Source of the DNA: Candidatus Omnitrophota bacterium
GTDB lineage: Bacteria; Omnitrophota; Gorgyraeia; Gygaellales; UBA12090
Reading direction: 5' to 3'
DNA: 54,523 nucleotides
Assembly (NCBI GenBank): GCA_030674475.1
Contig: JAUSCZ010000004.1
Span: forward strand, 1-54,523
Shown in pieces: positions 4,701-51,325 of this stretch (positions within the stretch are counted from its first letter, which is position 1; every line of letters starts with the position of its first letter). A program made the position numbers and the translations under genes. The notes below the pieces were generated by a model. That model was given only the letters and a program-made list of their open reading frames with translations. It did not search any database and was not told where the DNA came from.

Positions 4701-7700
4701 TATTCAGCTACCAATTCTTTCAGGGCCTCAACCGTTAAATCTTTGTCTTCCGCAACCTTATACTGTGCTTTCTTTTTATCGAGGACTTCCCCGAATTCTT
4801 TTTTATTAATGCCAAATACGGTAGAGCCAAACATCTGGATAAACCGGCGGTAACTATCCCAGGCAAATCTGGGATTATTGGTCCTCTTGGCTAAAATTTC
4901 AACGGTCTTATCATTTGACCCCACATTGAGAACAGTATCCATCATTCCCGGCATTGAAAATTTAGCTCCGGAACGAACCGAAACAAATAAAGGCATCTCC
5001 TCCTCATCTCCAAATTTTCTTTTCAGACTTTCCTCTATCTTTTTTAGATTCTCATCCACTAAAGCCTGTAATTGCGGCGGCCATTGTTTATTGTTTTTAT
5101 AATAATATTTACAGGCCTCGGTGGTAATGGTAAAACCCGGCGGAACCCGAACTCCGCCGTAGGTCATACGCGTCATACTGTGCACACTCTCGCCTTTTCC
5201 GCCTAAAACCTCTTTACGCCCAGGCAAGCTCAACCCAAAAAGATCCTCGGCTTCGGTTTTATTGTTTCCAAAGAAATACACAAGTTTTTCTACCGCGCTG
5301 CTGGTGGTTTCTTCTTGCGTTATCGCGCTGGCGGCGGCCGCGGTTTTTTCATTCTCTACCATTCTTTCATACTTAACCCTGCGCACCAGAGCCCTATCTG
5401 CATATTCACCGCCGGGGCCAAAATCATAGGCCGGCTGGGGATCTCCGGTTTTTAAGCCAAAGGCCTTTACCGCGTAGGCTAAATCAGCGATAGTGGTATC
5501 TAAGGTTTCCCCGGAACGATGTGAAACAATACACACAAAACCCGCTTTTTTGGCCCTTTTAATTACCTCTAAAGTTCCGCTCATTGAGCCGTTTTGATTA
5601 ACTTTTATCAAAATAGCCTTGGCCGCTTTTTTCTCTATGCCTTTTTCTAAGCGCTCTAATTGGGTAACAAAGTTATCATCGCCAATGGTCACTACGCCAA
5701 ATTCTTCCATTGCCTTGGTAAGTTTTGTCCAACCGTCCCAATCGTTTTCAGCTAAGCCGTCTTCAATGGAAATTATTTTCCCCGGGTATTTACGGGCTAA
5801 ATTCACATAGTAATTTATCATTTTATCGGAAGAAAGCATCTTACCTTGAAACTTATACTTCCCTGATTCTTTATTGTAAAAAGATGTCGCGGCAGTATCC
5901 AGGGCTAACTTAACATCAACTCCTGGCTTATAGCCCGCTCTTTCAATTGCTTTAAACACATATTCTATTGCTTCGTCGCTGCTACCGAGCCCTTTAACCG
6001 AAAAGCCGGCTTCGTCAGCGCGGGTAATTTTATCTAGGGCGAATTTCTCTAATAATATCTGTTTTAAATTAAAATCAATCTTATCCCCCATCTCTAAGGC
6101 TTCTTTCTGGCTTTTTGCTCCAACCGGAACAATCATAATTTCCTGAATAGCAATACGGTGAACGTTAAGTTCTTCTTCTTCGTCTTCTTTAGCCAGTTTT
6201 TTCTTTAAAGCATGAAAACCGCCGTTATAAATATTCATATACGGAAAGACAATATTAGGATTATCAAACACCGCCTCCGGCTCAAATTCTCGTATATATT
6301 GCCATAACTCCATATTGTGCAGTTTTGCCGCCAATACCCACAACGCCCTTGATACCGGCACAACCGCGTCGGCGCCCAGCAAAGCATAATTTTTTCCGGC
6401 CTTTTTGATTATCTCTTCTTCTATGGCCAGCAAATCCGCGTGCTTTCTTAAATCCCGGCCTTGCTTTATTTCTTCTAAAATCAAAGGGGTAATTATATCC
6501 TTTATATTTTTAATAGCGGCCTTTGCGCCGACAGTCCTGGCTTCATCTTCACCCTTTGAAGCCCCCGCGGGAACATCGCCCCGGGCCTTCACACCGTTAA
6601 TTTCCAAGGTTACTGCTACGGTCTCTTTGCCGCGGGAATCAAAAGCTATTTCGGGTTCAACCGTTATCGCCGAAGCCGCTATTTTTTGTTTTATTAATTC
6701 GTTGTTGTTCAAAAGAACTTTATCTCCGGGCATTATCGGCGAGCTGTTAATTTTTAATCCATTGTTTATCTGCTTCGGCATAAATTTTGCTATCCCCCCG
6801 CTCATATACCTGCGGATTACCTGTCCGGTAGGGGTGTAGATTGGTTCGGAGAGGTTGTATTCGCCTTCTTGGAATGATTTCTGGTAGGCATTGAAGTAGG
6901 TAATCTTGTCCCAGGCTTGTTTGGAGGTAAGGTTAGTTAAGTTGTGGGAGTTAATCAGCTTGATATAAGAGTCAGTCAGCGAACTATGCGCGCTAAAGGT
7001 CTCTTTAAACCAGCTGGCTAAGATCAGGGAGAAATAAACCTGCCTAAGATTAGCGTAGTCTTTGGAAGAGTTGACCTTTTGGGTGAGCTTGGGAAGAATC
7101 AGCTCTCGGATTAACTGGGTAGAGTATTGGTTGAGCTCTTTCATCCTGGGGTCTTTAAATTCATAGAGTTTTGAATTTTGGAATTTGGAATTTGTTTCGG
7201 ATTTCGGATTTCGGATTTCGGATTTTTCCAGATAGTCCTCTTCTAACATTACTTTGAGGTTAGCCTTGTAGATATAGGCTCCCTGGCTGGGGGTGGCCGA
7301 GCTGTCTGCGGATTCCCTGAGGATGATCTCACCCGGGACTATCCAGGGCCGGGTTAAGGTGGGGATAGTGATGTTTTCAGTGCCGAAGAGCTCTCCGGCT
7401 CTTTGGTAGAGCTTATTCCAGTATTCCTTGCCTTGGGGGGTTTGGGGTGAAGTGAATAGAGCGGTATCTTGTTTAAGCTTAAGGTCAGCTTCTAACATCA
7501 CCTTGCCTAAGTCGGTTTTAGCTAATTCCTCATCTATTATCTGGTCTTGGGAGTCTGGCCTTAAGTTAACCCAGAACTTATCGTTAGGTAAGCTTAGGCC
7601 GATCTTAAAGTAGTCTAAGAGGACACTGGCTGAACTTTTTAAATTGGTATCTGTTATATCTTTGCTATCTCCCTTGTCTAAGAGGATCTTGAAGTCATTG

Positions 7701-7876
7701 GTTAGGGACTGATAGGAGAAGTATCTTAAGCTGACCGGGCGGAAGCGGTCTGAGACTATGAGAGCAGGGCCCTGGTTGAGATAATTAGAAAGGTTGAGGC
7801 TGGCGGTGTAGGCAAAGACGGTTTGCTGGAGTCCGAAGCTTAGGGATAGGGCTAAAGAGATGATTCGTTTAAACAT
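1799..7876 (-). CDS. Giant exported polyprotein: N-module + enolase + pyruvate phosphate dikinase + C-module
   Basis: The 2025-residue protein begins with a Sec-type signal peptide (MFKR, hydrophobic stretch, then TVFA-YTA) and a ~400-residue N-terminal module of unknown function. A complete enolase follows at ~403-845. It has DSRG, E579, D660, SIEDGL with E705, GDD with D733, K758 in LIKVN, SHRSGET with H786, and K809. A complete pyruvate phosphate dikinase follows at ~862-1777. It has GGKG, RSGAKFSMPGMMD, the phospho-histidine motif GGMTSHAA with H1330, GTRGARLG, and CGEHGG with C1732. Residues ~1778-1870 are an unrecognised extension, and ~1877-2025 are the C-terminal module shared with the next giant gene. 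AGGAGG lies 8 nt before the ATG. The gene starts 98 nt after the end of the 2630-codon gene, so co-transcription is likely. The two enzymes are consecutive steps between 2-phosphoglycerate and pyruvate. The fusion and the signal peptide are both highly unusual for these families. Confidence 0.9.
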   Translation of the reverse strand: MFKRIISLALSLSFGLQQTVFAYTASLNLSNYLNQGPALIVSDRFRPVSLRYFSYQSLTNDFKILLDKGDSKDITDTNLKSSASVLLDYFKIGLSLPNDKFWVNLRPDSQDQIIDEELAKTDLGKVMLEADLKLKQDTALFTSPQTPQGKEYWNKLYQRAGELFGTENITIPTLTRPWIVPGEIILRESADSSATPSQGAYIYKANLKVMLEEDYLEKSEIRNPKSETNSKFQNSKLYEFKDPRMKELNQYSTQLIRELILPKLTQKVNSSKDYANLRQVYFSLILASWFKETFSAHSSLTDSYIKLINSHNLTNLTSKQAWDKITYFNAYQKSFQEGEYNLSEPIYTPTGQVIRRYMSGGIAKFMPKQINNGLKINSSPIMPGDKVLLNNNELIKQKIAASAITVEPEIAFDSRGKETVAVTLEINGVKARGDVPAGASKGEDEARTVGAKAAIKNIKDIITPLILEEIKQGRDLRKHADLLAIEEEIIKKAGKNYALLGADAVVPVSRALWVLAAKLHNMELWQYIREFEPEAVFDNPNIVFPYMNIYNGGFHALKKKLAKEDEEEELNVHRIAIQEIMIVPVGAKSQKEALEMGDKIDFNLKQILLEKFALDKITRADEAGFSVKGLGSSDEAIEYVFKAIERAGYKPGVDVKLALDTAATSFYNKESGKYKFQGKMLSSDKMINYYVNLARKYPGKIISIEDGLAENDWDGWTKLTKAMEEFGVVTIGDDNFVTQLERLEKGIEKKAAKAILIKVNQNGSMSGTLEVIKRAKKAGFVCIVSHRSGETLDTTIADLAYAVKAFGLKTGDPQPAYDFGPGGEYADRALVRRVKYERMVENEKTAAAASAITQEETTSSAVEKLVYFFGNNKTEAEDLFGLSLPGRKEVLGGKGESVHSMTRMTYGGVRVPPGFTITTEACKYYYKNNKQWPPQLQALVDENLKKIEESLKRKFGDEEEMPLFVSVRSGAKFSMPGMMDTVLNVGSNDKTVEILAKRTNNPRFAWDSYRRFIQMFGSTVFGINKKEFGEVLDKKKAQYKVAEDKDLTVEALKELVAEYKEVIKKSGREMPQDVREQLALAIGGVFESWNNERAIAYRNAENIPHDLGTAVTVQAMVFGNINDKSGTGVGFTRNPSTGENISFGEFLINAQGEDVVAGIRTPEKLAKLKDHPELAGIYEQLIDITTQLEKYYKDMLDYEFTIEDGILYLLQARAGKRTATAAVKIAVDLVKEGIITKKEALWRIKPEDLDEVLFPYLSPEEEAKLSSKDILAVGLPAGPGAGAGQIVFNAKEVSDFKKTVLLRQETSPDDVEGMRKARAIVTAKGGMTSHAAVVGRGMGKVVMVGAEQITVDEKNSVAYVRNEKGEVIATLRKGDWVTVSVSVDKGGRLIEGEKEIVQPTTISPEVKEYISWAKEVSNLRVRANGDTPEDAELAKELGAEGIGLTRTEHMFFAPDRLPEMRDMILNLGDKEKIQGALNKLLPMQIKDFTALFETMDGLPVTIRTLDPPLHEFLAKKDKLQEEMLQLSKQLSDAGGTNSKLIEELNEKMKVLKRIDELHEQNPMLGTRGARLGILMPEITKMQARAIAEAAVTVIQGGKKVNVEIMIPLIGTKAEFVHQKTIVDETIKEVIKEKGVSFTYKIGTMIEVPRAALTAGEIAEEAEFFSFGTNDLTQMTLGLSRDDTAKIIALYRELGIYPADPFEKLDQKGVGKLVTMAVNDGRRVKPDLKTGVCGEHGGNPDSIEFFHKAGLDYVSMSPYRILGAWLAAAQAQLKEPAPLTIHKLTKALEKIQAGNYLLSLENKPELGREIQMDARWERRNGDIFTKVIIQFGNGATAQDIKNYILKRPEAAKMLRHFDDKIINAIAEAEGKASSAMVNEAQVSPDLIQAKAPGGIDFRQMNMLIQPQGSFASSSLDFSLPALSKAEIESFDLDTELAAIQKMASSGIAPSDERLKEYLAVCFARQRTGREIDGLKLCLLDVFEQQQLEAKETPNGYKEVLVIADTRGYVLKEGRLAASGQSAYSLN
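1802..2248 (-). other. Shared C-terminal module (copy in enolase-PPDK protein)
   Basis: Residues ~1877-2025, beginning GGIDFRQMNMLIQPQGSFAS and ending SLN. The module is almost identical to residues ~2485-2630 of the neighbouring giant protein (8415-7978). It contains FARQRTGREID and EVLVIADTRGYVLKEGR. I do not recognise the fold. Its conservation after unrelated cargo suggests a common sorting, assembly or processing role (inference). Confidence 0.8.
2546..5293 (-). other. Pyruvate phosphate dikinase domain
   Basis: Residues ~862-1777, about 915 residues, close to the usual length of bacterial PPDK. All three parts can be seen. The N-terminal ATP-grasp nucleotide-binding part has GGKGESV and RSGAKFSMPG, the swivelling domain has H1330, and the C-terminal TIM-barrel PEP/pyruvate domain has C1732 in GVCGEHGG. 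PPDK interconverts PEP and pyruvate with ATP/AMP/PPi/Pi. Confidence 0.93.
5342..6670 (-). other. Enolase domain
   Basis: Residues ~403-845, full length for enolase (~430). Conserved metal and substrate residues are all present by motif: D660, E705 and D733 for Mg, E579 and K758 as acid/base pair, H786 and K809 for substrate. It is flanked on both sides by the Ala-Ser linker motif ASAI. Confidence 0.93.
6700..7876 (-). other. Shared N-terminal module with signal peptide (enolase-PPDK protein)
   Basis: Residues 1-~392. A signal peptide is followed by a module rich in Tyr, Leu and Lys with TPQGKEYWNKLYQRAGELFG and RPWIVPGEIILRES. It is nearly identical to the first ~385 residues of the 2630-residue protein and to the fragment at the left edge. 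The only strongly variable spot is residues ~217-240. The fold is not recognised. Confidence 0.8.
7195..7222. repeat. Heptanucleotide tandem repeat (TTTCGGA)4 inside giant gene
   Basis: Four exact TTTCGGA copies, followed by a related TTTTGGAATTTGG stretch, encode the variable insert SEIRNPKSETNSKFQNSK at residues ~219-236. A 28-nt array changes the reading frame if one 7-nt unit is gained or lost. Confidence 0.85.
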
Positions 7877-7974: not shown

Positions 7975-10900
7975 TTAATTTAAGCTTACCGTATTCTGTT
8001 TACTTGCCGCGAATCTACCCTCTTTTAAGACATACCCGCGGGTATCGGCAATGACCAAGACCTCTTTGTAGCCATTGGGGGTTTCCTTGGCTTCTAACTG
8101 TTGCTGCTCAAAGACATCCAAGAGACAGAGTTTGAGGCTGTCTATCTCCCTGCCGGTCCTTTGCCGGGCAAAACAAACCGCTAAGTATTCTTTTAGCCTT
8201 TCATCAGAAGGAGCCATTCCGGAGCTGACCATCTTTTGGATAGCGGCTAATTCCGTATCCAGGTCAAAAGACTCTATCTCAGCCTTGCTTAAGGAAGGGA
8301 GGCTAAAGTCCAAGCTTGAGGAAGCAAAGCTCCCCTGGGGCTGGATGAGCATATTCATTGTCCGTAAGTCTATACCACCAGGATTGGTAACGGCTTCTTT
8401 TGTCATCATAGCGGAGCTTGCGGCTCTAAAATGCTTTAATGACTCTTCGATTATTTTTACGAAGTCCGCGATTTTTAAAGATGCTCCGCCGATAAGCCCG
8501 CCATCAATGCTCGGTTGAGCAATGAGAGAAGCGATATTATCCGCTTTTACGCTTCCGCCATACTGAATCGGCATTTTAGAAGCAGTTTCATAACCGTAGG
8601 TATTTAACAGTAACGCCCTGATAAAACGATGAACTTCATTGGCCTGCTCTGGGGTCGCGGTCTTGCCGGTTCCGATGGCCCACACCGGCTCATAGGCAAT
8701 GATAATTTTCTGGATTTGCTCTGGGGTTAAATCCTTTAAACTATCAAGAGTTTGTTCAGCGATAATACTGAAAGTTTTTCCTGCTTCTCTTTCGTCAAGA
8801 GTCTCTCCTACGCAAACAATCGGTAACAACCCTTCCTGGAGAACCAGCTTAACCTTTTTGTTTACACTCTCGCTTGTTTCGGCAATTTCTGAACGCCGTC
8901 TTTCGGAATGCCCTAAAATCACATATTCAACGCCTGAGCTTTTAAGCTGTTTAGCGGAAACTTGACTTGTCCAGGCCCCGGGCTCGTTTAATGAAACATC
9001 TTGAGCGGCTAAACGAATGATTCCTTCAACTCCTAAGCGCTTAATCTCAGCATTAACCGCCGATATATGAACAAAAGAAGGAGCTATGGGAATAACGATA
9101 TCAATATTATCTTTGTTAACAAAGAGGCGGTTTTGTTTGATTGTCTCAACTATGCCTCTCACTATCCTAAGAGCGTCATCTTCGGTATTTACCGCCATCT
9201 TCCAATTGCCGCCGATAACATATTCCCGCTTTTGCTCTTCGGCTTTTTTTAAGGCCGCGGGAATAGAATCATTAGGATTTCCCAATACTTTTAATTCATT
9301 TTTAGTAGGCTCCGTATTATTTCGCAAAGTAGTATTATCGGGCGCCTTTTCCAATTCTTTTTCGATATACTCAATCCTTGACTTAAGCCACGCGTGTCTC
9401 TTCACGCGATCAATCCAATCAGCGGTTATTGGATCTTTGTCGACTTCATCTGCCACTATCGCCGAGGCCGCGCTAAACATCTCCTGCATTGCCTGAGGCC
9501 GGGAGGATAAAGGCGCGACAAGTAATGGGATAATCTCCTTGACTAATTCTCCGGTATTCTCTACCGCCAGGCTTCTCATAGTGTGAGAGAATTTTATTGC
9601 CAGCTGGTCTCCGATTCTCTCTTGGCTTTCCTTAGGCAGATTATAGACGGACTCTTTAATCAAGGTAAGGGAATTACGGAATTCAGCGGCCTTTTCCCAT
9701 AGCGCATCCTCTGATTTTCCGGTCTTGCTCATGGAATCTTTTAGGATGGCTTGATAAACATCCTGATGATTTGCTTTTAGATCCCTTAAGACCACGGTCA
9801 TATAATCGGTGGCTAAATGCACCTCGCCGGCACCGTTCTCCATAATCTTGCTGAATTCACTCTCTGGAAGCGTGGAGGCTCCGTGCTGAACCACCACGAC
9901 TCCGTATTCTTTACCTATTTCTGCCAATGCCTTTATTGTCGCAAAATCAATCTGCCCGCCTACTCCATGGGCGGTGCCGGTCTGAATAGCTATTTTGCGC
10001 AGGCCTTCCACATTCTGATACTGATTATATTTGGTTTTTAGGGCATCTAATACTTCTTTACTCCAGATTTCCTTTGACGCGCCTACGATCTGAAGAATCT
10101 CACTTTCTTTTCCTTGAGCAATCTTCATTTTCATAAACCCTAACATTGCATTATAAAGCTCAATGAAAGCGACGAATTCCCCGGGCTCACTATTCTTTTT
10201 ACCTACCTCCCCAATCTCTCCGCCCACGGTTACCGTAATGCCTTTAGGCTCAAGGGCCCTGACCTGGAGGGTATCCATAGCGGTCTCCTGGGCATTGATA
10301 ATCTGGTCCCGGACGATTTCTCTTGCTAAACCGAGAGTATCCTCTTTTATTCTTTGGGTAAATCTTTCCATAGTCTCCCGGAGCTTTAGTAACCCGGCTT
10401 TTTTATCGGCCTTGGTCTCGCTAGCCAGCTTTTGATCACATTCATTTATAATCCGGGCATAATACCCTGATAAAGTATAATTAAAAAGGGTATTTGCGGT
10501 CTCATCCATAATACGATTTAAAGCATTTTTTAAAGCTGTTTCAGTGGACCAGCGTGCAAAAATTTCATCAGCATACTCTAAAAGCTTTTTCTGAACTTCC
10601 AGCTTCGCCGCGGTTTCCTTGGTCTTGCTTTCTGTCGTAGATACCTCCCCTTCAAGGTCCTCTATGTCTTCTTTAAGGCCACTTCTGACTTCTTCATTAG
10701 GCACAAGGGTTGAATTGTCGCTGTCAATGCCATAATAACCGCCCTCAATAATGGCTTCTTTTATCTCTTTAAAACTTTTTTCTCTTACTTCATCCCTACT
10801 CTTAACATACTTCTCCGCGTTCTTCTGATAATGATCCGCCTGTAAGAAGATACGGCCTTGATAACCTTCCATTATGGCGGCGGCGGTCGCTATAGCCCAA

Positions 10901-13900
10901 TATTCCGCGGGTGGTTGAGCCGTGTATCCTTTTTCTGAAAGGGCGAGCTCAAAAATAATGGCTCCCGCGTTTATTTTACCCGCCTCCCGGAAAATCCTAC
11001 GCATTGATTCTAAGGTTAAGGTCCGGATATTAAAAGCCGGCACGGTAAACTTCTTGAGAGCGCTGTCTTCTTTGGCCATTTTCTTGTAAAGGCTGTTAAT
11101 GGAGGCGGGGATAATCCCGCGCTGTAAACCTATTTCCTGTAAAATCCTCCGGGCTGAGGCCTTCACATCGGGATTATTAGCTACCGCGGCCGCCTTGGCT
11201 AAAATTTCCGCGCCTTCGGATTTAAAACGAGGCTCATTTAAGATTATGATATTATTAGGGGTTACTTTAATGATCCCGGTCAGGGATTTGGTGAAATTTG
11301 CTTTTTCTTCTGTGGCTTCTATTGCGGAAGATGCGATTTCAATATTTTTAAGTTTCTCTATTGTCGCATTAACGTTATCAGTACTCAATTTCGTTTTAAC
11401 TGCAAAAGCCCCATCCTTAGTTACTACTATAGTATTTGTTATAAATACCCCTTCGCTGCTATCTGCTTTTCTTTCAATCGTAATCCTTGACAATAATTCG
11501 GCAAATGTTTTACCGTAGATATCCGGTGCGGCACCGGTTATAGCAGTTGCCGCAAAAATACCACCTTCTCCTTTAAAATCTGCTGTCTTATGTTCCTGCG
11601 TATAATCCTTCTCGCTATATCCTAATCTTCTGAATTCTGATATATCCTCCTCAGTGAATTGTAGCGCGGTTTCTTTATTTACACTTTTAGAGGTCATTTT
11701 CTCTGAAACAACTTTATGAGTAAATTGTCCGCGCCCATTACGTGCTAATTTAGCAATAAGATAGGCCATTTTTGCCTCTGCCGATCCCATGCGGTCTATA
11801 ACTATCATATGTTTACCATCCATTTTAAGACCTAAGATAGCATATAGGCTAGGTATCAAATTTCCATCACCAGGGGTACGAATCGTAAGGTTTGGATATT
11901 TCTCTCTAAGTTTTTTGGCATCATCAATAATCTTTCCATGCCGGGCATTACCTGACTGCTCATCAGCTTTTGACAAATCTCTCGTACGTTCACCTAATGC
12001 CACAAAAATGAGATTATTAATATAGTCTGCTTTAAATGCCTCAAGCGCTTCTGCATCATCAAACCCGATTCCTTGTTCCTTTGCCAAAGCCCTGACAATT
12101 TTATCTATTGCTTCACTTGGTAAATCGGAATACTCTACGCCTGCATCTGTTGATGCGTTATAACGCGGACCCCAAACACGAGCATTATCCCAGATAGCAT
12201 GTGTTACATCTCGATCATTATCAATGAAAGAAGTGACCGACCAAGTGCTAGTTGGATTAATTTTTGCACTCTCACCAACCATACCATTAGTATGTTCAAC
12301 ACCATCAGTGGCAACAAAACGAACCCTGATACTCTTTTCACGTAAGCGCAAAATTTCATTTTTATAAGTTTTAAAGAAGTTCTTGGGATCGGGATCTGGG
12401 TCTTGATATCCATTTGTATATCCAGACCAATAAATACGGCCTATAGGAAGAATACTTTTAACTCCATCTCGAACACCTTCTTCAGCAACCACCGCCATAG
12501 CCACATTAGGATTTGCTCTGGTATAGTCTAAAATACTTAAAACAGTATTCTGCCCTGCTTTACTATCAATTACTTCCTTACGCTTACTTATCTCTTCTTT
12601 ACCAATTCCCTCGGGGATACCTACATCAGGAAAACCGGCTAACCCTTGAACAGCAGAGGTCAATACAACCTGCCGCACATCAGAATCTTTTAGAGCTTCA
12701 TCCACAGATGGCAGATTTCCATCCGGCGTATCTACATCTAATCGTATTGCTTCCATGCTCTCAACCTTCAAGCCATAGCGATTAAACACTTCCTTATTTT
12801 CTTTAGGTGCCGTTATCGCCGAGGAGACGCCGCTAAACATCTCCTGCATCACCTGTGGCCGGGCAGGTAAAGCGGGGGGAAGCACCTGAACAATAGTTTT
12901 GACTAATGTTTTAGTATTCTCAACCCCCAGGCTTCTCATGGTGTTGGAGAATTTTAATGCCAGCTGGTCTCCGATTCTTTCCTGGCTTTCTTTAGGCAGA
13001 TTATAGACAGACTCTTTGATCAGGGTAAGGGAATTGCGGAATTCGGCCGGTTTTTCCCATAATTCATCCTCTGATTTTTTTGTCTTTTCCATGGAATCTT
13101 TCAGGATGGCTTGATAAACATCCTGATGATTTGTTCTTAGATCCCTTAAGACCACGGTCATATAATCGGTGGCTAAATGGACTTCGCCGGCGCCATTCTC
13201 CATAATCTTGCTAAACTCACTCTCCGGAAGCGTGGAGGCTCCGTGCTGAACCACCACGACTCCGTATTTTTTACCTATTTCCGCCAAGGCCTTGATTGTC
13301 TCAAAATCAATCTGCCCGCCTACCCCGTGGGCAGTGCCGGTCTGAATGGCTATCTTGCGCAGGCCTTCCACCCCCTTATACACATAGTATTTTATTTTTA
13401 GGGTATCTAATACTTCTTTACTCCAGATTTCCTTTGATGCGCCTACGATCTGAATAATCTCACTTTCTTTTCCTTGAATAATCTTTGTTTTCATAAACCC
13501 TAACATTTGATTATAAAGATCAATGAAAGCGGCAAATTCCCCGGGTTCACTGTTCTTTTTACCTACCTCCCCAATCTCTCCACCCACGGTTACCGTAATG
13601 CCTTTAGGCTCAAGGGCCCTGACCTGGAGGGTATCCATAGCGGTCTCCTGGGCATTGATAATTTGATCCCGGACTATTTCTTTCGCTAAACCGGAGGGAT
13701 CCTCTTTTATTCTTTGAGTAAATCTTTCTATGGTCTCCCGGAGCTTTATTAACCCGGCTTTTTTATCAGCCTTGGTCTCGCCGGCAAGTTTTTGATCACA
13801 TTCATTTATAATCCGGGCATAATACCCTTGTTGATTATATTCTTTAAGGGTATTTGCTGTCTGATGTATAACAGCTTTTATGGCTATCTGGTTAGACCAG

Positions 13901-15867
13901 CGCGCAAAGATTTCATCAGCATACTCTAAAAGCTTTTTCTGAACTTCCAGTTTCGCCGCGGTTTCCTTGGCTTTGCTTTCTGTCGTAGATACCTCCCCTT
14001 CAAGGTCTTCGATGACTTCTTTACTGGGCACAATGGTTGAGTTATCGCTGTCAATGCCATAATAACCGCCCTCAATGGCTTCTTTTATCTCTTTAAAACT
14101 CTTTTCTCTTACTTCATCCCTATTCTTGACATACTTCTCCGCGTTTTTCTGATAATGGTCGGCCTGTAAAAAGATATGGCCGTAGTAATTTTCCATTATG
14201 GCGGCGGCATTAGCTATAGCCCAATATTCCGCCGGTGGCTGAGCCGTATATCCTTTTTCTGAAAGGGCAAGTTCAAGAATAATGGCTCCCGCGTCTATTC
14301 TTTTAGCCTCTCTTAAAATCCTGCGCATTGATTCTAAGGTCAAGGTCCGGATATTAAAAGCCGGCACAGTAAACTTCTTGAGAGTGCTGTCTTTTTTGGC
14401 CATTTCTCTATAAAGGCTGTTAATGGAGGCAGGGATAATCCCGCGCTGTAATCCTATCTCCTGCAAAATCCTCCGGGCTGAGGCCTTTACATCAGGATTA
14501 GCGGCTACAGCCGCGGCCTTGGCTAAAATCTCCACGCCTTCAGATTTAAAACGAGGCTCGTTTAAAATTATAATATAATTAGAGGTTACTTGAATGATCC
14601 CGGTGAGGGATTTGAGGAAATTGGCTTTTTCTTCTCCGGCTTCTATTGCAGAGGCTGCCATCTTTGGTGTTGTTAACTCTACAGGAGCTTCCGCGGCGGT
14701 TGATTTCTGGATATTGAGCTCGGCCTTCATCAAAAGAACCTTATCTTCGGGCATTATCGGCGAGCTGTTAATTTTTAATCCATTGTTTATCTGCTTCGGC
14801 ATAAATTTTGCTATCCCCCCACTCATATACCTGCGGATTACCTGTCCGGTAGGGGTGTAGACCGGTTCAGAGAGGTTGTATTCGCCTTCTTGGAATGATT
14901 TCTGGTAAGCATTGAAGTAGGTAGTCTTGTCCCAGGCTTGTTTGGAGCTAAGATTGGTTAAGTTATGGGAGTTAATCAGTTTGAGGTAGTCTCCTTGGGC
15001 GGCTTGGTTATCCTTGAAGGTCTCTTTAAACCAGCTGGCTAAGATCAGGGAGAAATAAACCTGCCTAAGATTAGCGTAGTCTTTGGAGGAGTTGACCTTT
15101 TGGGTGAGTTTGGGAAGAATCAGCTCTCTGATTAACTGGGTAGAATATTGGTTAAGCTCTTTTAAGCGGGGATCAGAAAAGTTATACTGCTGAGAGCTGA
15201 TAGCTGAGGGCTGATGGCTTAAGTAGTCTTCTTCTAACATTACTTTAAGGTTAGCCTTGTAGATATAGGCACCCTGGGAGGTTTTTGAGGAGTTGTCTTG
15301 AGATTCTCTAAGAATAATCTCACCCGGGACTATCCAGGGTCTAGTTAAGGTGGGGATGGTGATGTTTTCGGTGCCGAAGAGCTCTCCGGCTCTCTGGTAG
15401 AGCTTATTCCAGTATTCCTTGCCTTGGGGGGTCTGGGGGGAGGTGAATAAGGCGGTGTCTTGTTTAAGCTTCAGGTCAGCTTCTAACATCACCTTACCTA
15501 AGTCAGTTTTAGCTAATTCATCATCTATTATCTGGTCTTGAGAATCCGGTCTTAAGTTAACCCAGAACTTATCATTAGGTAAGCTTAAGCCAATCTTGAA
15601 GTAGTCTAAGAGGACACTGGCTGAACCTTTTAAATTGGTATCTGTTATATCTTTGCTATCTCCCTTGTCTAAGAGTATCTTGAAGTCATTGGTTAAGGGC
15701 TGATAGGAGAAGTATCTTAGGTTGATTGGGCGGAATCTATCCGAGACTGCTAGATTAGGGCCTTGATTGAGATAGCCGGAGAGGTTGAGGCTGGCGGTAT
15801 AGGCAAAGACGGTTTGCTGAAGTCCGAAGCTTAGGGTTAAGGCTAAAGAGATGAGTCTTTTAAACAT
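7975..15867 (-). CDS. Giant exported polyprotein: N-module + aldolase + GlpX-like FBPase + aldolase + triosephosphate isomerase + C-module
   Basis: The 2630-residue protein has the same Sec signal peptide and N-terminal module as its neighbour (1-~400). Class II fructose-bisphosphate aldolase-like domains lie at ~404-1013 and ~1514-2133. Each has four candidate zinc ligands: H571, E764, H847, H875 and H1679, E1884, H1967, H1995. A ~495-residue GlpX-like class II fructose-1,6-bisphosphatase lies between them. A complete triosephosphate isomerase follows (~2213-2480) with NWKM K2223, GHSERR H2320 and AYEPVW E2393. The shared C-terminal module ends the protein. AGGAGG precedes the ATG. A consensus promoter lies at 16099-16126, with a terminator-like hairpin in the leader. 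The cargo would run from triose phosphates through fructose-1,6-bisphosphate to fructose-6-phosphate. It is probably co-transcribed with the enolase-PPDK gene. Confidence 0.9.
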   Translation of the reverse strand: MFKRLISLALTLSFGLQQTVFAYTASLNLSGYLNQGPNLAVSDRFRPINLRYFSYQPLTNDFKILLDKGDSKDITDTNLKGSASVLLDYFKIGLSLPNDKFWVNLRPDSQDQIIDDELAKTDLGKVMLEADLKLKQDTALFTSPQTPQGKEYWNKLYQRAGELFGTENITIPTLTRPWIVPGEIILRESQDNSSKTSQGAYIYKANLKVMLEEDYLSHQPSAISSQQYNFSDPRLKELNQYSTQLIRELILPKLTQKVNSSKDYANLRQVYFSLILASWFKETFKDNQAAQGDYLKLINSHNLTNLSSKQAWDKTTYFNAYQKSFQEGEYNLSEPVYTPTGQVIRRYMSGGIAKFMPKQINNGLKINSSPIMPEDKVLLMKAELNIQKSTAAEAPVELTTPKMAASAIEAGEEKANFLKSLTGIIQVTSNYIIILNEPRFKSEGVEILAKAAAVAANPDVKASARRILQEIGLQRGIIPASINSLYREMAKKDSTLKKFTVPAFNIRTLTLESMRRILREAKRIDAGAIILELALSEKGYTAQPPAEYWAIANAAAIMENYYGHIFLQADHYQKNAEKYVKNRDEVREKSFKEIKEAIEGGYYGIDSDNSTIVPSKEVIEDLEGEVSTTESKAKETAAKLEVQKKLLEYADEIFARWSNQIAIKAVIHQTANTLKEYNQQGYYARIINECDQKLAGETKADKKAGLIKLRETIERFTQRIKEDPSGLAKEIVRDQIINAQETAMDTLQVRALEPKGITVTVGGEIGEVGKKNSEPGEFAAFIDLYNQMLGFMKTKIIQGKESEIIQIVGASKEIWSKEVLDTLKIKYYVYKGVEGLRKIAIQTGTAHGVGGQIDFETIKALAEIGKKYGVVVVQHGASTLPESEFSKIMENGAGEVHLATDYMTVVLRDLRTNHQDVYQAILKDSMEKTKKSEDELWEKPAEFRNSLTLIKESVYNLPKESQERIGDQLALKFSNTMRSLGVENTKTLVKTIVQVLPPALPARPQVMQEMFSGVSSAITAPKENKEVFNRYGLKVESMEAIRLDVDTPDGNLPSVDEALKDSDVRQVVLTSAVQGLAGFPDVGIPEGIGKEEISKRKEVIDSKAGQNTVLSILDYTRANPNVAMAVVAEEGVRDGVKSILPIGRIYWSGYTNGYQDPDPDPKNFFKTYKNEILRLREKSIRVRFVATDGVEHTNGMVGESAKINPTSTWSVTSFIDNDRDVTHAIWDNARVWGPRYNASTDAGVEYSDLPSEAIDKIVRALAKEQGIGFDDAEALEAFKADYINNLIFVALGERTRDLSKADEQSGNARHGKIIDDAKKLREKYPNLTIRTPGDGNLIPSLYAILGLKMDGKHMIVIDRMGSAEAKMAYLIAKLARNGRGQFTHKVVSEKMTSKSVNKETALQFTEEDISEFRRLGYSEKDYTQEHKTADFKGEGGIFAATAITGAAPDIYGKTFAELLSRITIERKADSSEGVFITNTIVVTKDGAFAVKTKLSTDNVNATIEKLKNIEIASSAIEATEEKANFTKSLTGIIKVTPNNIIILNEPRFKSEGAEILAKAAAVANNPDVKASARRILQEIGLQRGIIPASINSLYKKMAKEDSALKKFTVPAFNIRTLTLESMRRIFREAGKINAGAIIFELALSEKGYTAQPPAEYWAIATAAAIMEGYQGRIFLQADHYQKNAEKYVKSRDEVREKSFKEIKEAIIEGGYYGIDSDNSTLVPNEEVRSGLKEDIEDLEGEVSTTESKTKETAAKLEVQKKLLEYADEIFARWSTETALKNALNRIMDETANTLFNYTLSGYYARIINECDQKLASETKADKKAGLLKLRETMERFTQRIKEDTLGLAREIVRDQIINAQETAMDTLQVRALEPKGITVTVGGEIGEVGKKNSEPGEFVAFIELYNAMLGFMKMKIAQGKESEILQIVGASKEIWSKEVLDALKTKYNQYQNVEGLRKIAIQTGTAHGVGGQIDFATIKALAEIGKEYGVVVVQHGASTLPESEFSKIMENGAGEVHLATDYMTVVLRDLKANHQDVYQAILKDSMSKTGKSEDALWEKAAEFRNSLTLIKESVYNLPKESQERIGDQLAIKFSHTMRSLAVENTGELVKEIIPLLVAPLSSRPQAMQEMFSAASAIVADEVDKDPITADWIDRVKRHAWLKSRIEYIEKELEKAPDNTTLRNNTEPTKNELKVLGNPNDSIPAALKKAEEQKREYVIGGNWKMAVNTEDDALRIVRGIVETIKQNRLFVNKDNIDIVIPIAPSFVHISAVNAEIKRLGVEGIIRLAAQDVSLNEPGAWTSQVSAKQLKSSGVEYVILGHSERRRSEIAETSESVNKKVKLVLQEGLLPIVCVGETLDEREAGKTFSIIAEQTLDSLKDLTPEQIQKIIIAYEPVWAIGTGKTATPEQANEVHRFIRALLLNTYGYETASKMPIQYGGSVKADNIASLIAQPSIDGGLIGGASLKIADFVKIIEESLKHFRAASSAMMTKEAVTNPGGIDLRTMNMLIQPQGSFASSSLDFSLPSLSKAEIESFDLDTELAAIQKMVSSGMAPSDERLKEYLAVCFARQRTGREIDSLKLCLLDVFEQQQLEAKETPNGYKEVLVIADTRGYVLKEGRFAASKQNTVSLN
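7978..8415 (-). other. Shared C-terminal module (copy in aldolase-FBPase-TIM protein)
   Basis: Residues ~2485-2630, almost identical to the module ending the neighbouring giant protein. The DNA is also near-identical, so the duplication is recent or the copies are homogenised by gene conversion. Confidence 0.8.
8428..9231 (-). other. Triosephosphate isomerase domain
   Basis: Residues ~2213-2480, full length for TIM. Catalytic Lys (GNWKM), His (GHSERR) and Glu (YEPVWAIGTG) are present, as are the phosphate-binding motifs YGGSV and GGASL. It is preceded by a ~75-residue charged linker (2137-2212) and followed by AASSAM. Confidence 0.95.
9469..11328 (-). other. Class II fructose-bisphosphate aldolase-like domain, copy 2
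   Basis: Residues ~1514-2133. VPAFNIRTLT, FLQADHYQ, GYYGIDSDNST, GGEIGEVG, GTAHGVGG and VVQHGAS follow the class II aldolase order. About 170 residues of mostly helical sequence are inserted between the DSDNS and GEIGEVG motifs compared with ordinary ~300-residue enzymes. It is highly similar to copy 1. Confidence 0.8.
11335..12819 (-). other. GlpX-like class II fructose-1,6-bisphosphatase domain
   Basis: Residues ~1017-1511. The order of motifs matches GlpX as I remember it. AEEGVRDG corresponds to the GEGE-DEAP region, TDGVEHT (D1188, E1191, T1193) to DPxEGT, TPGDGN to PDGD, GSAEAKM (E1364) to GGAPEG, and GGIFAATAITG to the IFAATGIT segment. It is divergent, so activity is uncertain. Its position between two aldolases supports the call, because aldolase makes the FBPase substrate. 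Confidence 0.6.
12829..14658 (-). other. Class II fructose-bisphosphate aldolase-like domain, copy 1
   Basis: Residues ~404-1013, with the same motif order and the same large insertion as copy 2. All four candidate zinc ligands are present. It is introduced by MAASAI and ends with MQEMFSGVSSAI; copy 2 ends with MQEMFSAASAI. Confidence 0.8.
14670..15867 (-). other. Shared N-terminal module with signal peptide (aldolase-FBPase-TIM protein)
   Basis: Residues 1-~400, collinear with the module of the enolase-PPDK protein. Differences cluster at residues ~217-230, where this copy carries SHQPSAISSQQ encoded by a degenerate heptamer-like repeat (CTGAGAG, CTGATAG, CTGAGGG, CTGATGG at 15189-15217). 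Confidence 0.8.
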
Positions 15868-40881: not shown

Positions 40882-41160
40882 AATCTGCCTCTGGCGCTTA
40901 GATTTTACTTGATTCTGAGCTATGCGAAGAATCTTAAAAAGAGAATCTGCCTCTGGCGCTTAGATTTTACTTGATTCTGAGCTATGCGAAGAATCTTAAA
41001 AAGAGAATCTGCCTCTTGAGCGCTAAAGATTTTACTTGATTCTGAGCTCTGCGAAGAATCTTAAAAGAGAATCTGCCTCTTGAGCGCTAAAGATTTTACT
41101 TGCCTGCCGGCAGGCAGGATTCTGAGCTCTGCGAAGAATCTTAAGAAATAATCTGCCTCG
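40882..41160. repeat. Tandem repeat of ~62 bp (4 copies plus the sulP 3' end)
   Basis: Units start at 40882, 40944, 41006, 41070 and (partial) 41150, each beginning AATCTGCCTC. Spacings are 62, 62, 64 and 80 bp; the last is longer because it contains a GCCTGCCGGCAGGC palindrome. Each unit contains two small hairpins (GATTCT...AGAATC and AAATCT...AGATTT). The outermost unit merges into the last codons of sulP, so the array seems to have grown from the gene end. It accounts for most of the 40708-41140 gap. Confidence 0.9.
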
Positions 41161-46837: not shown

Positions 46838-47236
46838 TCAAGGGTTAAATAATTTCAATCCGGTGCAATCGGCGATTAAAGAAAAATCTTTGTCTTTAGA
46901 AAATACCTTTACATCGTTTTCAATCGCGGCGGCGGCAATTATGGCATCCACGGTTTTGCTTATAGTCTTGCCTTTCTTCCGGCACAAACGATAGATATCC
47001 GCCGCCAAGACATAAGTCTCCAAACTTGATGCCCTGATTACCGGAAATTGAATAAGGTATTCCTTTAATTCTTTAAATATGCCGTCATCCTTTATACCCT
47101 GAAGAATTTCGGTAAGGATAATGTCCAAAATACAGATATCCTCGTCTTGCTCAATCAGACTCTTTAATTTCGCGGCATAAATTGATGCCGGATGGTTAAA
47201 GAAATCTATCCATACCGAAGTATCCACCAAAATCAA
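46838..47236 (-). CDS. vapC: PIN-domain toxin VapC
   Basis: The 132-residue protein is typical VapC size. The acidic PIN residues are in ILVDTSVWIDFF, LTEILQGI, TVDAIIAAAA and FSKDKDF. It starts at a TTG that overlaps the VapB stop (TTGA), with AAGGAG upstream. It would be an RNA-cleaving toxin held by VapB. Confidence 0.88.
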   Translation of the reverse strand: MILVDTSVWIDFFNHPASIYAAKLKSLIEQDEDICILDIILTEILQGIKDDGIFKELKEYLIQFPVIRASSLETYVLAADIYRLCRKKGKTISKTVDAIIAAAAIENDVKVFSKDKDFSLIADCTGLKLFNP

Positions 47237-47433
47237 CTTCTGCTCCTTCTCATCCTTGCCAAATTACCCTCCCAGCAAGAAGAACCGGACAAGTTTAGTA
47301 TCGCCTTTCTCTTTAACCTCTTGACCATTTCCGCTAAAGCGGCATTAACCAACTCCTTCTTGGTTCGAAAATGGGTAATAGCCAGGCCTTCTTTTACCAG
47401 CTTCTCATCCAATACAATATTGGTCCTGTGCAT
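47233..47433 (-). CDS. vapB: VapB-type antitoxin
   Basis: I prefer the ATG at 47433 (MHRTNIVLDEKLVKEGLAIT) to the track start, because GGAGGAG lies just upstream. It has 66 residues. The N-terminal RTNIVLDE strand and two helices (TKKELVNAALAEMVKRL) match the VapB type II family with a ribbon-helix-helix fold. An inverted repeat ATACAC-N7-GTGTAT with a third half-site lies just upstream, a likely autorepression operator. Confidence 0.85.
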   Translation of the reverse strand: MHRTNIVLDEKLVKEGLAITHFRTKKELVNAALAEMVKRLKRKAILNLSGSSCWEGNLARMRRSRS

Positions 47434-47444
47434 ATCGCTCCTCC

Positions 47445-47474
47445 ATACACAAAGCATACACTATTCTGGTGTAT
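47445..47474 (-). promoter_or_regulatory. Candidate VapBC operator
   Basis: ATACAC (47456-47461) and GTGTAT (47469-47474) form an inverted repeat, with another ATACAC at 47445-47450. Confidence 0.55.
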
Positions 47475-47487
47475 AAATCAACTTCTT

Positions 47488-48498
47488 TCATTTTTGGGGC
47501 TGAGAATGGGGCACAATAGCAGAAGCAGGATTATTTTGCCCTTTTAATTCCTCAACTATTTTCTTTAGCCGGACCATGCGTTCAGGGCTGGAGGGGTGGG
47601 TGCTGAAGAAGTTGCGGGTCATACTCTGGGGTATCTCAATAGCAAAACGCTCCCAGACATCTACCCCGGCCTCAATATTAAAACCGGACAAATAAACATA
47701 TTTCAGGCCAAAGTAATCCGCCTCCCGCTCAAAATCCTGGGAAAACCTGGAACTAAAGGCCGCGGAAACCGAACGCATCACCGCGTCCCCGGAGCCGGGA
47801 GAAACCTTATTGGCTCCGATTCCGGCGGCAATCCCAGCTAGCATTGAAATAAGATTGATTCCTGAACCTTTCAAATGATGGCCCTTGGTAATATGGGCCA
47901 GCTCATGGCCTAAGACCGCCGCTACCTCATCGTCACTTTTGGTAAAACGCATCAAACCGTAAGTAACCACAATCAGATTGGGCATAGCTCCGGCATTTAC
48001 CTCCTGCTCATCTACCATACGGAAGGAAACATCCCAAGGCTTAGAGCCCAACCTAAAACCCAGGTTTATCTTTGCTCCCGAACGTAAAACCGCGAGTTCA
48101 ACTAATTGGCCGGGAGCCTTATGATTAAGGACATAGGCCGCGTCGGATAAATCATTAATCGGAAGATTCTCGATACTTTTAATAACATCGCCGGCAATAA
48201 CTCCTGCCATCTTGGCCGGACTGTCTTCAACTACCCCGGTAACCACCACGCCATTACTGTTTGAGAGATGATAAAGCTTAACGAAATATTCATCAATCTT
48301 GGATAGAAGTAATCCGGAGTAGACAAAATTCCCCTTGCTATCCTCTTCCGGAAGTTTCAAGAGAAGCTTGTAGCCGATGTTATTTACCTTGACTAAATAA
48401 TCTATCTGAAATTTTAGGGCCTTGACTTTCAACTCCGCGCCGGCTTGTTTGATTTCTTTTTCAGAGACATAAGGGCCGGTAACCGCGCAGCCAGACAA
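47488..48498 (-). CDS. M48 metallopeptidase with PDZ domain, predicted lipoprotein (signal peptide frame-shifted)
   Basis: The 336-residue frame starts at a TTG right in the lipobox (L-S-G-C). It contains a PDZ domain (~residues 85-150, GVVVTGVVEDSPAKMAGVIAGDVIKSIENLPI) and an M48 peptidase with zinc motif LGHELAHITKGHH and the downstream EREAD. It should be an outer-membrane-associated protease for damaged or misassembled envelope proteins. The best start is an ATG at 48563 encoding MLKLAAGKNKFFLLSAICYLL, but it is out of frame with this body because of a (TAGCAGA)4 repeat. Five copies would join them into a perfect lipoprotein signal peptide. Confidence 0.85.
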   Translation of the reverse strand: MSGCAVTGPYVSEKEIKQAGAELKVKALKFQIDYLVKVNNIGYKLLLKLPEEDSKGNFVYSGLLLSKIDEYFVKLYHLSNSNGVVVTGVVEDSPAKMAGVIAGDVIKSIENLPINDLSDAAYVLNHKAPGQLVELAVLRSGAKINLGFRLGSKPWDVSFRMVDEQEVNAGAMPNLIVVTYGLMRFTKSDDEVAAVLGHELAHITKGHHLKGSGINLISMLAGIAAGIGANKVSPGSGDAVMRSVSAAFSSRFSQDFEREADYFGLKYVYLSGFNIEAGVDVWERFAIEIPQSMTRNFFSTHPSSPERMVRLKKIVEELKGQNNPASAIVPHSQPQK

Positions 48499-48500
48499 AA

Positions 48501-48528
48501 TAGCAGATAGCAGATAGCAGATAGCAGA
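48501..48528. repeat. Heptanucleotide tandem repeat (TAGCAGA)4 in the signal-peptide region
   Basis: Four exact copies (28 bp). Seven nt per unit means copy-number change shifts the reading frame. Confidence 0.92.
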
Positions 48529-48534
48529 AAAAAC

Positions 48535-49191
48535 TTATTTTTTCCGGCGGCAAGCTTTAGCATCTTTAATGATACCTAAATCCTGGAATTCCTGTTGTAA
48601 CTCTTGGGTGGTCTTAAATTGAATTGATTTTATTCCGTAGCTCAAAGCGGCCTCAATTAAATCCAAGCGGTCATCCACATACACCACGCTCTCCCGGGGC
48701 ACACCTAAAGCCTTCAGGGCTAAATCATAAATCTCTTTATCCGGCTTGATAAATCCGGTCCGAAAAGAAGGGATTATTTTATCCGACTCAAACAATCCAA
48801 TGGTAGAAGAAAATTCTTCCCGGATATATTCATAATGCAGCTGGTTGATATTGGAAAGCAAGGCTAATTTAATCCCGGAATTTAGAGAGCTGACAAAATC
48901 TTCACTCTCCGGCTTAGAGAAAAATATCTCATTCCAGATCGGCAGGAATTCCCCGTAACTTATTTTCAATTCCAGGGCGGTTTGGACCTGCTTGAAAAAT
49001 TCTAATTTGCCGGTTTTGCCTTTCTCGAATTCCTGGGTTAAATCCGAATCAAAAAATAAATCATAGATATCCCGGCTTTTCTTGGGCGTATGCTTTAATA
49101 TTTTCTTGACCGCGATAGTGTGGTCAAATCCGATTAACACATTACCCAGATCAAAAATTACCGCCTTTATTTCCTTAACATTATTTTTCAT
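48535..49191 (-). CDS. HAD-superfamily hydrolase
   Basis: I prefer the ATG at 49191 (MKNNVKEIKAVIFDLGNVL), which has GAGGAG upstream. The track start is an in-frame TTG four codons earlier. It has 218 residues. HAD motifs: FDLGNVLIGFD (motif I), LALLSNINQ (II), GFIKPDKEIYDLAL (III) and VVYVDDRLDLIEAA (IV). It is a YihX-like phosphatase and the substrate is unknown. Its last codons overlap the alternative ATG of the M48 gene. Confidence 0.88.
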   Translation of the reverse strand: MKNNVKEIKAVIFDLGNVLIGFDHTIAVKKILKHTPKKSRDIYDLFFDSDLTQEFEKGKTGKLEFFKQVQTALELKISYGEFLPIWNEIFFSKPESEDFVSSLNSGIKLALLSNINQLHYEYIREEFSSTIGLFESDKIIPSFRTGFIKPDKEIYDLALKALGVPRESVVYVDDRLDLIEAALSYGIKSIQFKTTQELQQEFQDLGIIKDAKACRRKK

Positions 49192-49208
49192 TATGCTCCT
49201 CAACGCGC

Positions 49209-50204
49209 CTAATTAAGCTTTTTTTCTTCGCTGGCTTTGGGTTTTTTAAAAAGGTCGAGGAAGCGGTCTTCGTATTCTTTATAGACATTCCAATGATCCA
49301 ACTCTCTTTTTAATTCCGCGGCCTTGGAAATATTAGATTTAACCTCGGGAAAAAGCTTCTCAATCTTTTCCCGGGCGGATTGAGGAAGCTTAGTCTGTAG
49401 ACTCAGGGATTTCTTAATCTTATCAATCTCATCCTGGCCTATCGGGCCGGGGCCGCTTTCAGAGGGAATCTGCTGAATAAACTCAATAATCTTATCAATC
49501 TCCTGCTCCATTAGCTTGGCCGATTGAGTTAAACCGCTGAGATCAATATCAATTCTTAACAGGCGGCTAAGTTTATTTAATATGGCTAAAGATGCCTTGG
49601 GATTATCCATCTGAATAGTAAAAAGAGGAATCTCGCCCAGAAAGCAGGCCCCCTCAAAACTGAATTCTTTGGCTACCCCCAAAAATAATCCGTTCAGCCC
49701 GCTCACCTGGCCGGCGCTAAGGATCTTCAGCCCGAGATTAAGGCTGTTCAGTTCATCAAATAACTTTTTACTGGTGGCGCAAAACCAGACCTGAGATTCA
49801 AGGGTATGGTCAATCGGCTGAGGCATCGCGGCAAAGCTGAATATTCGATAGACTTTTAAATCTTTAGCCGTCAAAAGTATTTTTTTGCAGTATTCATAGG
49901 CGTGCTCTAAAAGCGGCTGGGCATCGCTTAAAAAAACAATCAAGTCGGATGATCCGGTCTTATTCTTATAAAAATAAAATTTCCCGATTCCGGCCTTGGG
50001 TAGCTGCACCAGATTATTCTCAATCCAGATGCCCGTGGGAGGAAACAACTCCGGAGCCAGCAGTGTCCCGAATTCCTCCATCTTAAGTTTATCCCTTAAG
50101 TATAATCCTAATTTAAAAGCTACTTCTCCCATCCCCGGCCAGGCGCAAATGAGAATCGGTTTTTTTAATCTCGGTTTTTTGGTTAGTGACAATGAAATTT
50201 TCAT
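49209..50204 (-). CDS. PAC2-family protein
   Basis: The 331-residue protein has ICAWPGMGEVAFKLGLYLRDKL, SDAQPLLEHAYEYCKKIL and GQVSGLNGLFLGVAKE, which follow the PAC2 (proteasome-assembly-chaperone-like) family, common in actinobacteria and candidate phyla. The function in bacteria without a proteasome is unknown. A ~90-residue helical C-terminal tail is extra. Its ATG overlaps the M20 stop by 4 nt. Confidence 0.8.
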   Translation of the reverse strand: MKISLSLTKKPRLKKPILICAWPGMGEVAFKLGLYLRDKLKMEEFGTLLAPELFPPTGIWIENNLVQLPKAGIGKFYFYKNKTGSSDLIVFLSDAQPLLEHAYEYCKKILLTAKDLKVYRIFSFAAMPQPIDHTLESQVWFCATSKKLFDELNSLNLGLKILSAGQVSGLNGLFLGVAKEFSFEGACFLGEIPLFTIQMDNPKASLAILNKLSRLLRIDIDLSGLTQSAKLMEQEIDKIIEFIQQIPSESGPGPIGQDEIDKIKKSLSLQTKLPQSAREKIEKLFPEVKSNISKAAELKRELDHWNVYKEYEDRFLDLFKKPKASEEKKLN

Positions 50205-51325
50205 CTTTCTCCTTTTAAAAATTCCTCTAAAGCCCTCGCGCCTTGATAGAGGGTATCTATTTTCACATACTCGTCATTGATATGGGCACAGGTCCGGGAG
50301 CCGAATCCGGTAGCCACCGCCGGAATCCCTCTTTCCTTGAAAAAGGTAATAACCGTAGCTCCTTCTGAACCTTTCAGGCCGGCGGATTTTTTGTGTTTGC
50401 GCCAAATTTTTAATAAAGAACTGACTAACTCGTGATTTCGCTCAATTTCGTAAGGATTTTGAATCCCATCTATCTTTAGAGTGAATCTTTTTGCCCTTTT
50501 AGCGATAACTTTTTTAAAATCGCTCAGGATATCCTGGGCCGACATTCCGGGGAGATAACGAACATCAAGTTCAAACTCACACCAATCCGCCACCATATTC
50601 ACTTTGTCCCCGCCGTGTATGGTGCCGATGTTAATTGTCGGAGGATGCAAAAGAGGGTGCTTTTTATATTTAAATTTGTAGCCTTCCAAATCCTCTATTA
50701 CGCGGCTGGCGATATTTATGGCATTTATTCCCCGCCAGGGATACGCCCCGTGGGCCTTGCGCCCGGATACGCGGACTTTAAAATGAATCAGGCCTTTTTG
50801 GGCAACTATTATATCAAACTCATCCGAATCTAAGATAAGGGCATAATCCGCTCTTAAAATATTTTTCTTGAGCAAAGGAATCAGCCCCAGACTTGAGCCG
50901 GTTTCCTCATCAGCAGTCGCGGCAAAAAGGATGTTGTTTTTTATTTTTGTCTTATCCTCGACCAGGCTGTGTAAGACCTCAATAGCCACAGCCAGGTTTC
51001 CCTTACAATCAGTTGTCCCCCGGCCGTAAATCTTATCGCCTTTAATCGTGCCTTTAAAAGGAGGATATTTCCAGCCTGAGCCGGCGGGAACCGTATCCAA
51101 ATGCGGACTGATAAGAATGGTCCTGGCGCGAGGACTATCGGATTCTAACCGGCAGATTATATTCGGCCTGTTTTTAGCAAACTCATAAATCCTGGATTTT
51201 AGGCCAAAGCTGTCTAAATACTCCCGGATAAATCTAACCATCTCAAACTCATTACCCGGGGGATTCTGGGAATCTATCCGAATCAGCTTTTGGGTTAATG
51301 CTATCAGCCTCTTACGATTGATCAT
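50201..51325 (-). CDS. M20-family metallopeptidase (ArgE/DapE-like)
   Basis: The 374-residue protein has the zinc ligands and catalytic motifs ISPHLDTVPAG (HxD), GRGTTDCKGN, ATADEETGSS and a C-terminal H in CAHINDEY. It deacylates an amino acid or cleaves a succinyl-diaminopimelate-type substrate. Exact specificity is not clear. Confidence 0.9.
   Translation of the reverse strand: MINRKRLIALTQKLIRIDSQNPPGNEFEMVRFIREYLDSFGLKSRIYEFAKNRPNIICRLESDSPRARTILISPHLDTVPAGSGWKYPPFKGTIKGDKIYGRGTTDCKGNLAVAIEVLHSLVEDKTKIKNNILFAATADEETGSSLGLIPLLKKNILRADYALILDSDEFDIIVAQKGLIHFKVRVSGRKAHGAYPWRGINAINIASRVIEDLEGYKFKYKKHPLLHPPTINIGTIHGGDKVNMVADWCEFELDVRYLPGMSAQDILSDFKKVIAKRAKRFTLKIDGIQNPYEIERNHELVSSLLKIWRKHKKSAGLKGSEGATVITFFKERGIPAVATGFGSRTCAHINDEYVKIDTLYQGARALEEFLKGER

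Follow-up and report, generated by a model that had tools for sequence, protein, structure and literature searches.

The question raised by this locus is why the gene of a predicted surface-anchored peptidase has an intact body that is out of frame with its start codon, and whether the heptanucleotide repeat that separates the two acts as a switch. The preliminary description of the sequence proposed a contingency locus in the OFF state or, alternatively, a repeat-count error in the assembly. The window (the whole stretch of 54,523 nucleotides that was analysed) is contig C23 of a 2.19-Mb draft MAG of 42 contigs from a Candidatus Omnitrophota bacterium.

The gene is encoded on the minus strand, and its product contains an M48 peptidase domain (PF01435, E 2.3e-26, 93.2 bits against a cut-off of 20.3) and a PDZ domain (PDZ_2, E 3.3e-13). 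The frame of the body (47488..48534) is open and intact, without a proper start codon, and the HExxH motif and downstream Glu ligand characteristic of the M48 family are conserved as HELAH and EREAD, both invariant in the alignment. Upstream on the same strand are located genes encoding an M20 (ArgE/DapE-type) peptidase (50201..51325; PF01546, E 5.4e-29; TIGR01910, 267.8 bits, above the cut-off), which overlaps the start of a PAC2-family gene (49209..50204; PF09754, E 5.9e-32), and a HAD-family hydrolase (48535..49203; PF00702, E 6.2e-15) ending in TAA at 48537-48535; the M20, PAC2, HAD and M48 genes form an apparent operon. A VapB/VapC-type toxin-antitoxin pair (VapB antitoxin and PIN protein; 46838-47457, minus strand) lies directly downstream of the M48 gene. 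The M48 lipoprotein peptidases LoiP and BepA share with the Omnitrophota protein an M48 metallopeptidase domain with HExxH, and LoiP is lipid-anchored, as this protein is predicted to be. However, the LoiP and BepA NCBIfam cut-offs are far from reached (64 of 365 and 63 of 570 bits, respectively) and, unlike these enzymes, the Omnitrophota protein carries a PDZ domain; it belongs to a family separate from LoiP/BepA.

Between the start codon and the body lies a tandem array, (TCTGCTA)4.1 in coding-strand units, at 48500..48528 of the minus strand, which was detected by TRF (100% matches, score 58) and also read directly. According to first-order Markov simulations, 0.05 period-7 arrays of this strength are expected per window, vs the two that were observed. 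Because 7 equals 1 modulo 3, a heptamer array gives the same heptapeptide, rotated, in every frame; at this locus it is SAICYLL, which is hydrophobic in all of them, and therefore any in-frame unit count yields a usable signal core.

Translation from the ATG at 48561..48563 (minus strand), which gives a 29-nt overlap with the end of the HAD gene, begins MLKLAAGKNKFFLLSAICYLL and then leaves the peptidase frame within the array, producing 44 aa, MLKLAAGKNKFFLLSAICYLLFCLAARLPALMSLKKKSNKPARS, before a stop codon (48429..48563 in the ORF listing); the peptidase is in another frame, which reads VFSAICYLLSAILSGCAVTG. When the number of units was varied in silico from one to nine, 2, 5 or 8 units joined this ATG to the body, giving lipoproteins of 353, 360 or 367 aa with a signal ending in LSGC, and with 1, 3, 4, 6, 7 or 9 units the ATG was not joined to the body and the products were of 31-51 aa. 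The L-S-G-C lipobox was read directly at 48487..48498 (minus strand; cysteine codon 48489-48487); its Gly and Cys are invariant in seven homologues, and the whole motif is common to both congeneric genomes, G001 and G002. As judged by eye, a basic n-region, a hydrophobic core and the lipobox Cys come together only with 2, 5 or 8 units and in both congeners, and the four-unit product does not qualify as a lipoprotein signal. As in simple-sequence contingency loci, a unit not divisible by three thus stands between start codon and body.

The frame of the body is closed upstream by the TAA at 48537-48535, which is the stop codon of the HAD gene read in the same frame, and the sole ATG, GTG or TTG available in it as a start, TTG 48498, would yield MSGCAV..., lacking a signal peptide. 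This codon was rejected as the real start since it is not conserved (congener G001 has TTA) and its use would mean losing the signal peptide. The preliminary description had stated that four TAGCAGA units put ATG 48563 out of frame, that five would give a perfect lipoprotein signal and that the present frame has no good start; the array found by TRF, the ORF frames and the in silico unit counts bear out all of this. A T6 run (48528..48533, minus strand, read directly) immediately precedes the array, and a -1 ribosomal slip on it might bring the ATG frame into that of the peptidase, providing a possible leak.

In both congeners the M48 gene is in frame from the equivalent ATG and shows the same overlap with the HAD gene, the N-terminal sequences being MLKPPAGKNKFLLLSVICYLLSVFLSGC in G002 and MLKPPAGKNKSLLSVILILSFVIILSGC in G001. 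ATG 48563 is the ancestral start, to judge from this shared position. The distance from the ATG to the lipobox Cys is 77 nt in the window vs 84 nt in both congeners, that is, exactly one unit fewer, and in the alignment the 7-nt gap falls in the array and the end of the HAD gene is unchanged. A homopolymer indel was rejected as the cause of the frame shift, as neither the A6 run nor the HAD stop has changed and the 7 nt that are lacking belong to the array. G002 has its own array at the same place, with CTGTTAT as unit, and G001 has none; the units differ uniformly between the two arrays, being CTGCTAT here vs mostly CTGTTAT in G002. Copy number therefore differs by a whole unit from that of the array-bearing relative, at the species level only: the congeners are different species (dS 0.16 and 0.42) and in-frame alleles were compared only across species. 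In G003, G006 and G007, which belong to other genera, the gene starts in the same HAD-overlapping region and has no array there, and in G013, from another family, a (CTATCTA)3 array occupies the same signal peptide in frame. No M48 ortholog was detected in G005 and G008, which are 89% and 65% complete, respectively. Among the relatives compared, none was seen to keep the frame of the window with another functional start, in agreement with the initial account.

The body of the gene has been preserved. Changes private to this genome amount to 15 synonymous vs 2 non-synonymous (~228 and 771 sites, respectively), pairwise dN/dS is 0.15 with G001 and 0.08 with G002, there are no internal stops and the catalytic motifs are intact. 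These substitution patterns indicate that purifying selection acted on the M48 protein along almost the whole of its own branch and, since the body is also intact, the off state looks recent or intermittent.

The array is not an isolated feature. Perfect arrays of at least 19 nt were counted in a 1.32-Mb sample (~60% of the genome), in which 54 had a period of 7 vs two for periods 2-6 together (0-1 each) and no more than four for any other period, evidencing a genome-wide, period-7-specific, STRR-like family. The density, ~41 per Mb, can be set beside 33 and 58 per Mb in G002 and G006, which belong to the same family, and three arrays in ~420 kb of other families of the order. Sequence outside called genes is ~8% of the sample, yet it holds 19 of the 54 arrays; three more overlap gene ends and the remaining 32 fall within genes as called. 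Genes were called with a simple script, which makes the individual assignments approximate, and any array placed within a called gene is necessarily in frame; broken genes were therefore sought separately, by scanning for bodies that lack a start. Among the genes with coding arrays are housekeeping genes, including those for AlaRS, DXS, korA, hisF, gltD and others, all of them in frame; the identities of AlaRS, DXS, GltD and HisF are presumed, the proteins having been recognised from their sequence without a family search.

The units differ from locus to locus instead of being one or a few shared sequences, although some related units recur across loci (e.g., ATAGTTG/GTTGATA). The possibility that the M48 array is a copy of a dispersed element was rejected, as (TAGCAGA)3 is found nowhere else in the whole genome. 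The AlaRS arrays of this genome, G002, G001, G005 and G007 occupy regions of equal length but have different units (GCTATCC; GACTATT-like; GAACTATC-like), and those of DXS are equally long in this genome, G001 and G005, the units of G005 being changed. Units turn over across relatives and length is kept, so arrays are repeatedly made and rewritten and selection keeps the coding ones in frame.

The window has one other perfect heptamer array, (TCCGAAA)4.4 at 7195..7225 (minus strand), which reflects the same repeat process as the M48 array. It lies in frame, with no frame damage, inside a 2025-aa ORF (1799-7876, minus strand) with enolase N and C, PPDK_N, PEP-utilizers and PEP-utilizers_C domains, an apparent fusion of enolase with a pyruvate-phosphate-dikinase-type enzyme. 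A neighbouring ORF of 2630 aa (7975-15867, minus strand) contains triosephosphate isomerase and class II fructose-bisphosphate aldolase domains, which suggests that the two may be giant fused glycolytic enzymes; stretches related to the shared region recur in L050, L076, L084 and L147. The window also contains a tandem array with a 62-bp unit at 40882-41102 (3.5 copies, 96% matches by TRF).

Among the ~30 coding arrays sampled, that of the M48 gene is the only one that breaks a gene in the 60% of the genome covered. A scan for further out-of-frame exact arrays returned, besides M48, only one plainly intergenic case, and when imperfect arrays were allowed only intergenic cases were obtained, with a start of their own downstream; the latter scan omitted the M48 locus, probably because its looser array boundaries include the TTG start. 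Frame-breaking slips are evidently rare or removed, because every other coding array sampled is in frame. In the literature collection that was searched, nothing relevant to tandem repeats or phase variation in Omnitrophota was found.

Arrays adjacent to the start codon are present in four other genes, korA (POR_N), a MOSC-domain gene, a PyrK-like gene (L146:14724; the name is inferred, and the piece tested gave no Pfam match) and a TPR lipoprotein, and all four are in frame. The TPR (YfiO-like) lipoprotein (L152:10490; region 10467-10540, contig C41 of the same genome) has a signal-peptide core made up of a heptamer array, (CGCTATC)3, which is in frame and follows a GTG overlapping the upstream stop. 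In other genera too, the N-terminal regions of korA and the MOSC gene contain heptamer-like stretches, the units of which are unrelated (L105, L106, L117, L120 and L122). Because the other N-terminal arrays are in frame and M48 is the sole exception, a general slippage process is a better frame for the M48 finding than a dedicated switch.

Altogether, the M48 gene of this genome probably represents a potentially reversible off allele that arose through slippage loss of one unit in a heptamer array typical of the family. According to this explanation, one of the many heptanucleotide arrays pervading this genome and its family came to lie between the start codon and the lipobox, where it would specify the hydrophobic signal-peptide core. 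One 7-nt unit may then have been lost by slipped-strand mispairing, the deficit itself being observed against both congeners. With this loss the conserved ATG would be out of frame and the gene, in the genotype as assembled, would be OFF or almost OFF. The state should be reversible in principle, because gain or loss of units to 2, 5 or 8 would in each case restore a good signal. Against this explanation, the congeners are other species, so no ON allele has been seen within the same species; the consensus count of a draft MAG might reflect an erroneous or a minority allele; an array of four or five units is short for high-frequency slippage; and some expression at a low level may occur through -1 slippage on the T6 run.

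A second explanation, considered doubtful, is that the gene is a young pseudogene, in which ordinary slippage led to a fixed, unreversed loss of function in this lineage. The fact that the M48 array is the sole broken one in the sample is consistent with such a lesion, and the gene may be dispensable, given that no ortholog was found in G005 or G008 and that the genome has another M48 gene, on contig C21. On the contrary, the undecayed body, with its two non-synonymous vs 15 synonymous changes and no stops, and the ease with which a slip in a repeat is reversed argue against a fixed loss.

That the locus is a true contingency locus, whose array is maintained by selection and lets part of the population switch a surface lipoprotein ON and OFF as in Neisseria opa or Escherichia coli neuO, appears unlikely. 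The non-triplet unit lies in the signal peptide of a surface-anchored protein, the gene is now out of frame while its body is under purifying selection, and arrays occur in the same signal peptide in G002 and in G013. However, repeats are not concentrated in surface or adaptive genes: they are common in the housekeeping genes named above and right after the starts of korA, the MOSC gene and the PyrK-like gene, so that position alone is no sign of selection. Besides, G001 and other members of the family have no array at the M48 gene, a protease is an atypical antigenic target and the array is short. Of the proposal of a contingency locus switched OFF, the ancestral ATG and the frame break of one heptamer were therefore upheld, but the arrangement can hardly be called its signature at ~41 arrays per Mb, many of them in housekeeping enzymes. 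A broader and more speculative hypothesis, for which the likelihood is low, is that an unusual form of replication slippage in 7-nt steps keeps creating and rewriting arrays of arbitrary sequence in this Omnitrophota family, essential genes included, and that those falling between overlapping operon starts and gene bodies might constitute distributed reversible frame switches, of which the M48 lipoprotein would be one caught off.

A repeat-count error in the assembly, the real genome having five units, is improbable: the genome is a draft MAG, all other coding arrays found are in frame and the M48 gene is in frame in both congeners, but a 29-bp array would fit well inside one short read and collapse would be unlikely, the loss of a whole unit is the expected product of slippage, and other arrays of this assembly, as long as 34 bp, keep the frame of their genes. 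Equally improbable is expression despite the break, either by -1 ribosomal or transcriptional slippage on T6 (AAG TTT TTT CTG), which would give MLKLAAGKNKFFSAICYLLSAILSGC, a usable lipoprotein signal compatible with the conserved body, or from TTG 48498 after the HAD stop, since the T6 run is short, forms a non-canonical heptamer (G TTT TTT) and is absent from the congeners, and no ribosome-binding site is evident for the TTG, which is not conserved and as a start would eliminate the signal peptide.

To our knowledge, repeats that switch the reading frame have been described almost exclusively in cultured bacteria associated with hosts. An M48 gene lying one unit out of frame suggests that environmental MAGs also carry such states, which are missed by annotation pipelines, as these would call the gene without its signal peptide or start. 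The closest parallel in position is found in the opa genes of Neisseria, which contain CTCTT pentamers in the signal-peptide coding sequence (PMC4534519). Both systems have a non-triplet tandem repeat in this region, and a surface protein changes frame when units are gained or lost; the M48 locus differs in having a heptamer in 4-5 units and a lipoprotein protease of an uncultured environmental bacterium, and in being known from sequence alone. In E. coli K1, neuO carries an AAGACTC heptanucleotide in its 5' coding region, with 3-53 copies, commonly ~20, and measured mixed populations (PMC13001214). As at the M48 locus, the heptanucleotide lies close to the start codon, every third copy number is ON and the copy number found in genomes decides the state; in contrast, the M48 array has four copies, fewer than most neuO alleles, and encodes the core of a signal peptide. 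The hmw1A and hmw2A genes of Haemophilus influenzae likewise have heptanucleotide repeats of variable copy number (13-38) that control a surface protein, but these are located in the promoter and tune transcription instead of switching the coding frame (PMC2651432).

At the genome level, heptameric repeats have been described in Xanthomonas and Nostoc (PMC4692102) and TAACTGA repeats in Beggiatoaceae, in a study that cites the suggestion that a 7-nt contact of the DNA polymerase favours heptamer slippage (PMC4679880). These repeats and the cyanobacterial STRR resemble those of the Omnitrophota genome in the excess of period 7, the few units, the intergenic enrichment and the 7-nt steps between close strains. 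They differ in that they consist of one or a few shared units and are mostly intergenic, whereas the Omnitrophota units are locus-specific and about half of the arrays are coding, and in frame. A family-wide period-7 process that rewrites the arrays of core enzymes at constant length is relevant to the question of why bacteria favour heptamers as long repeats.
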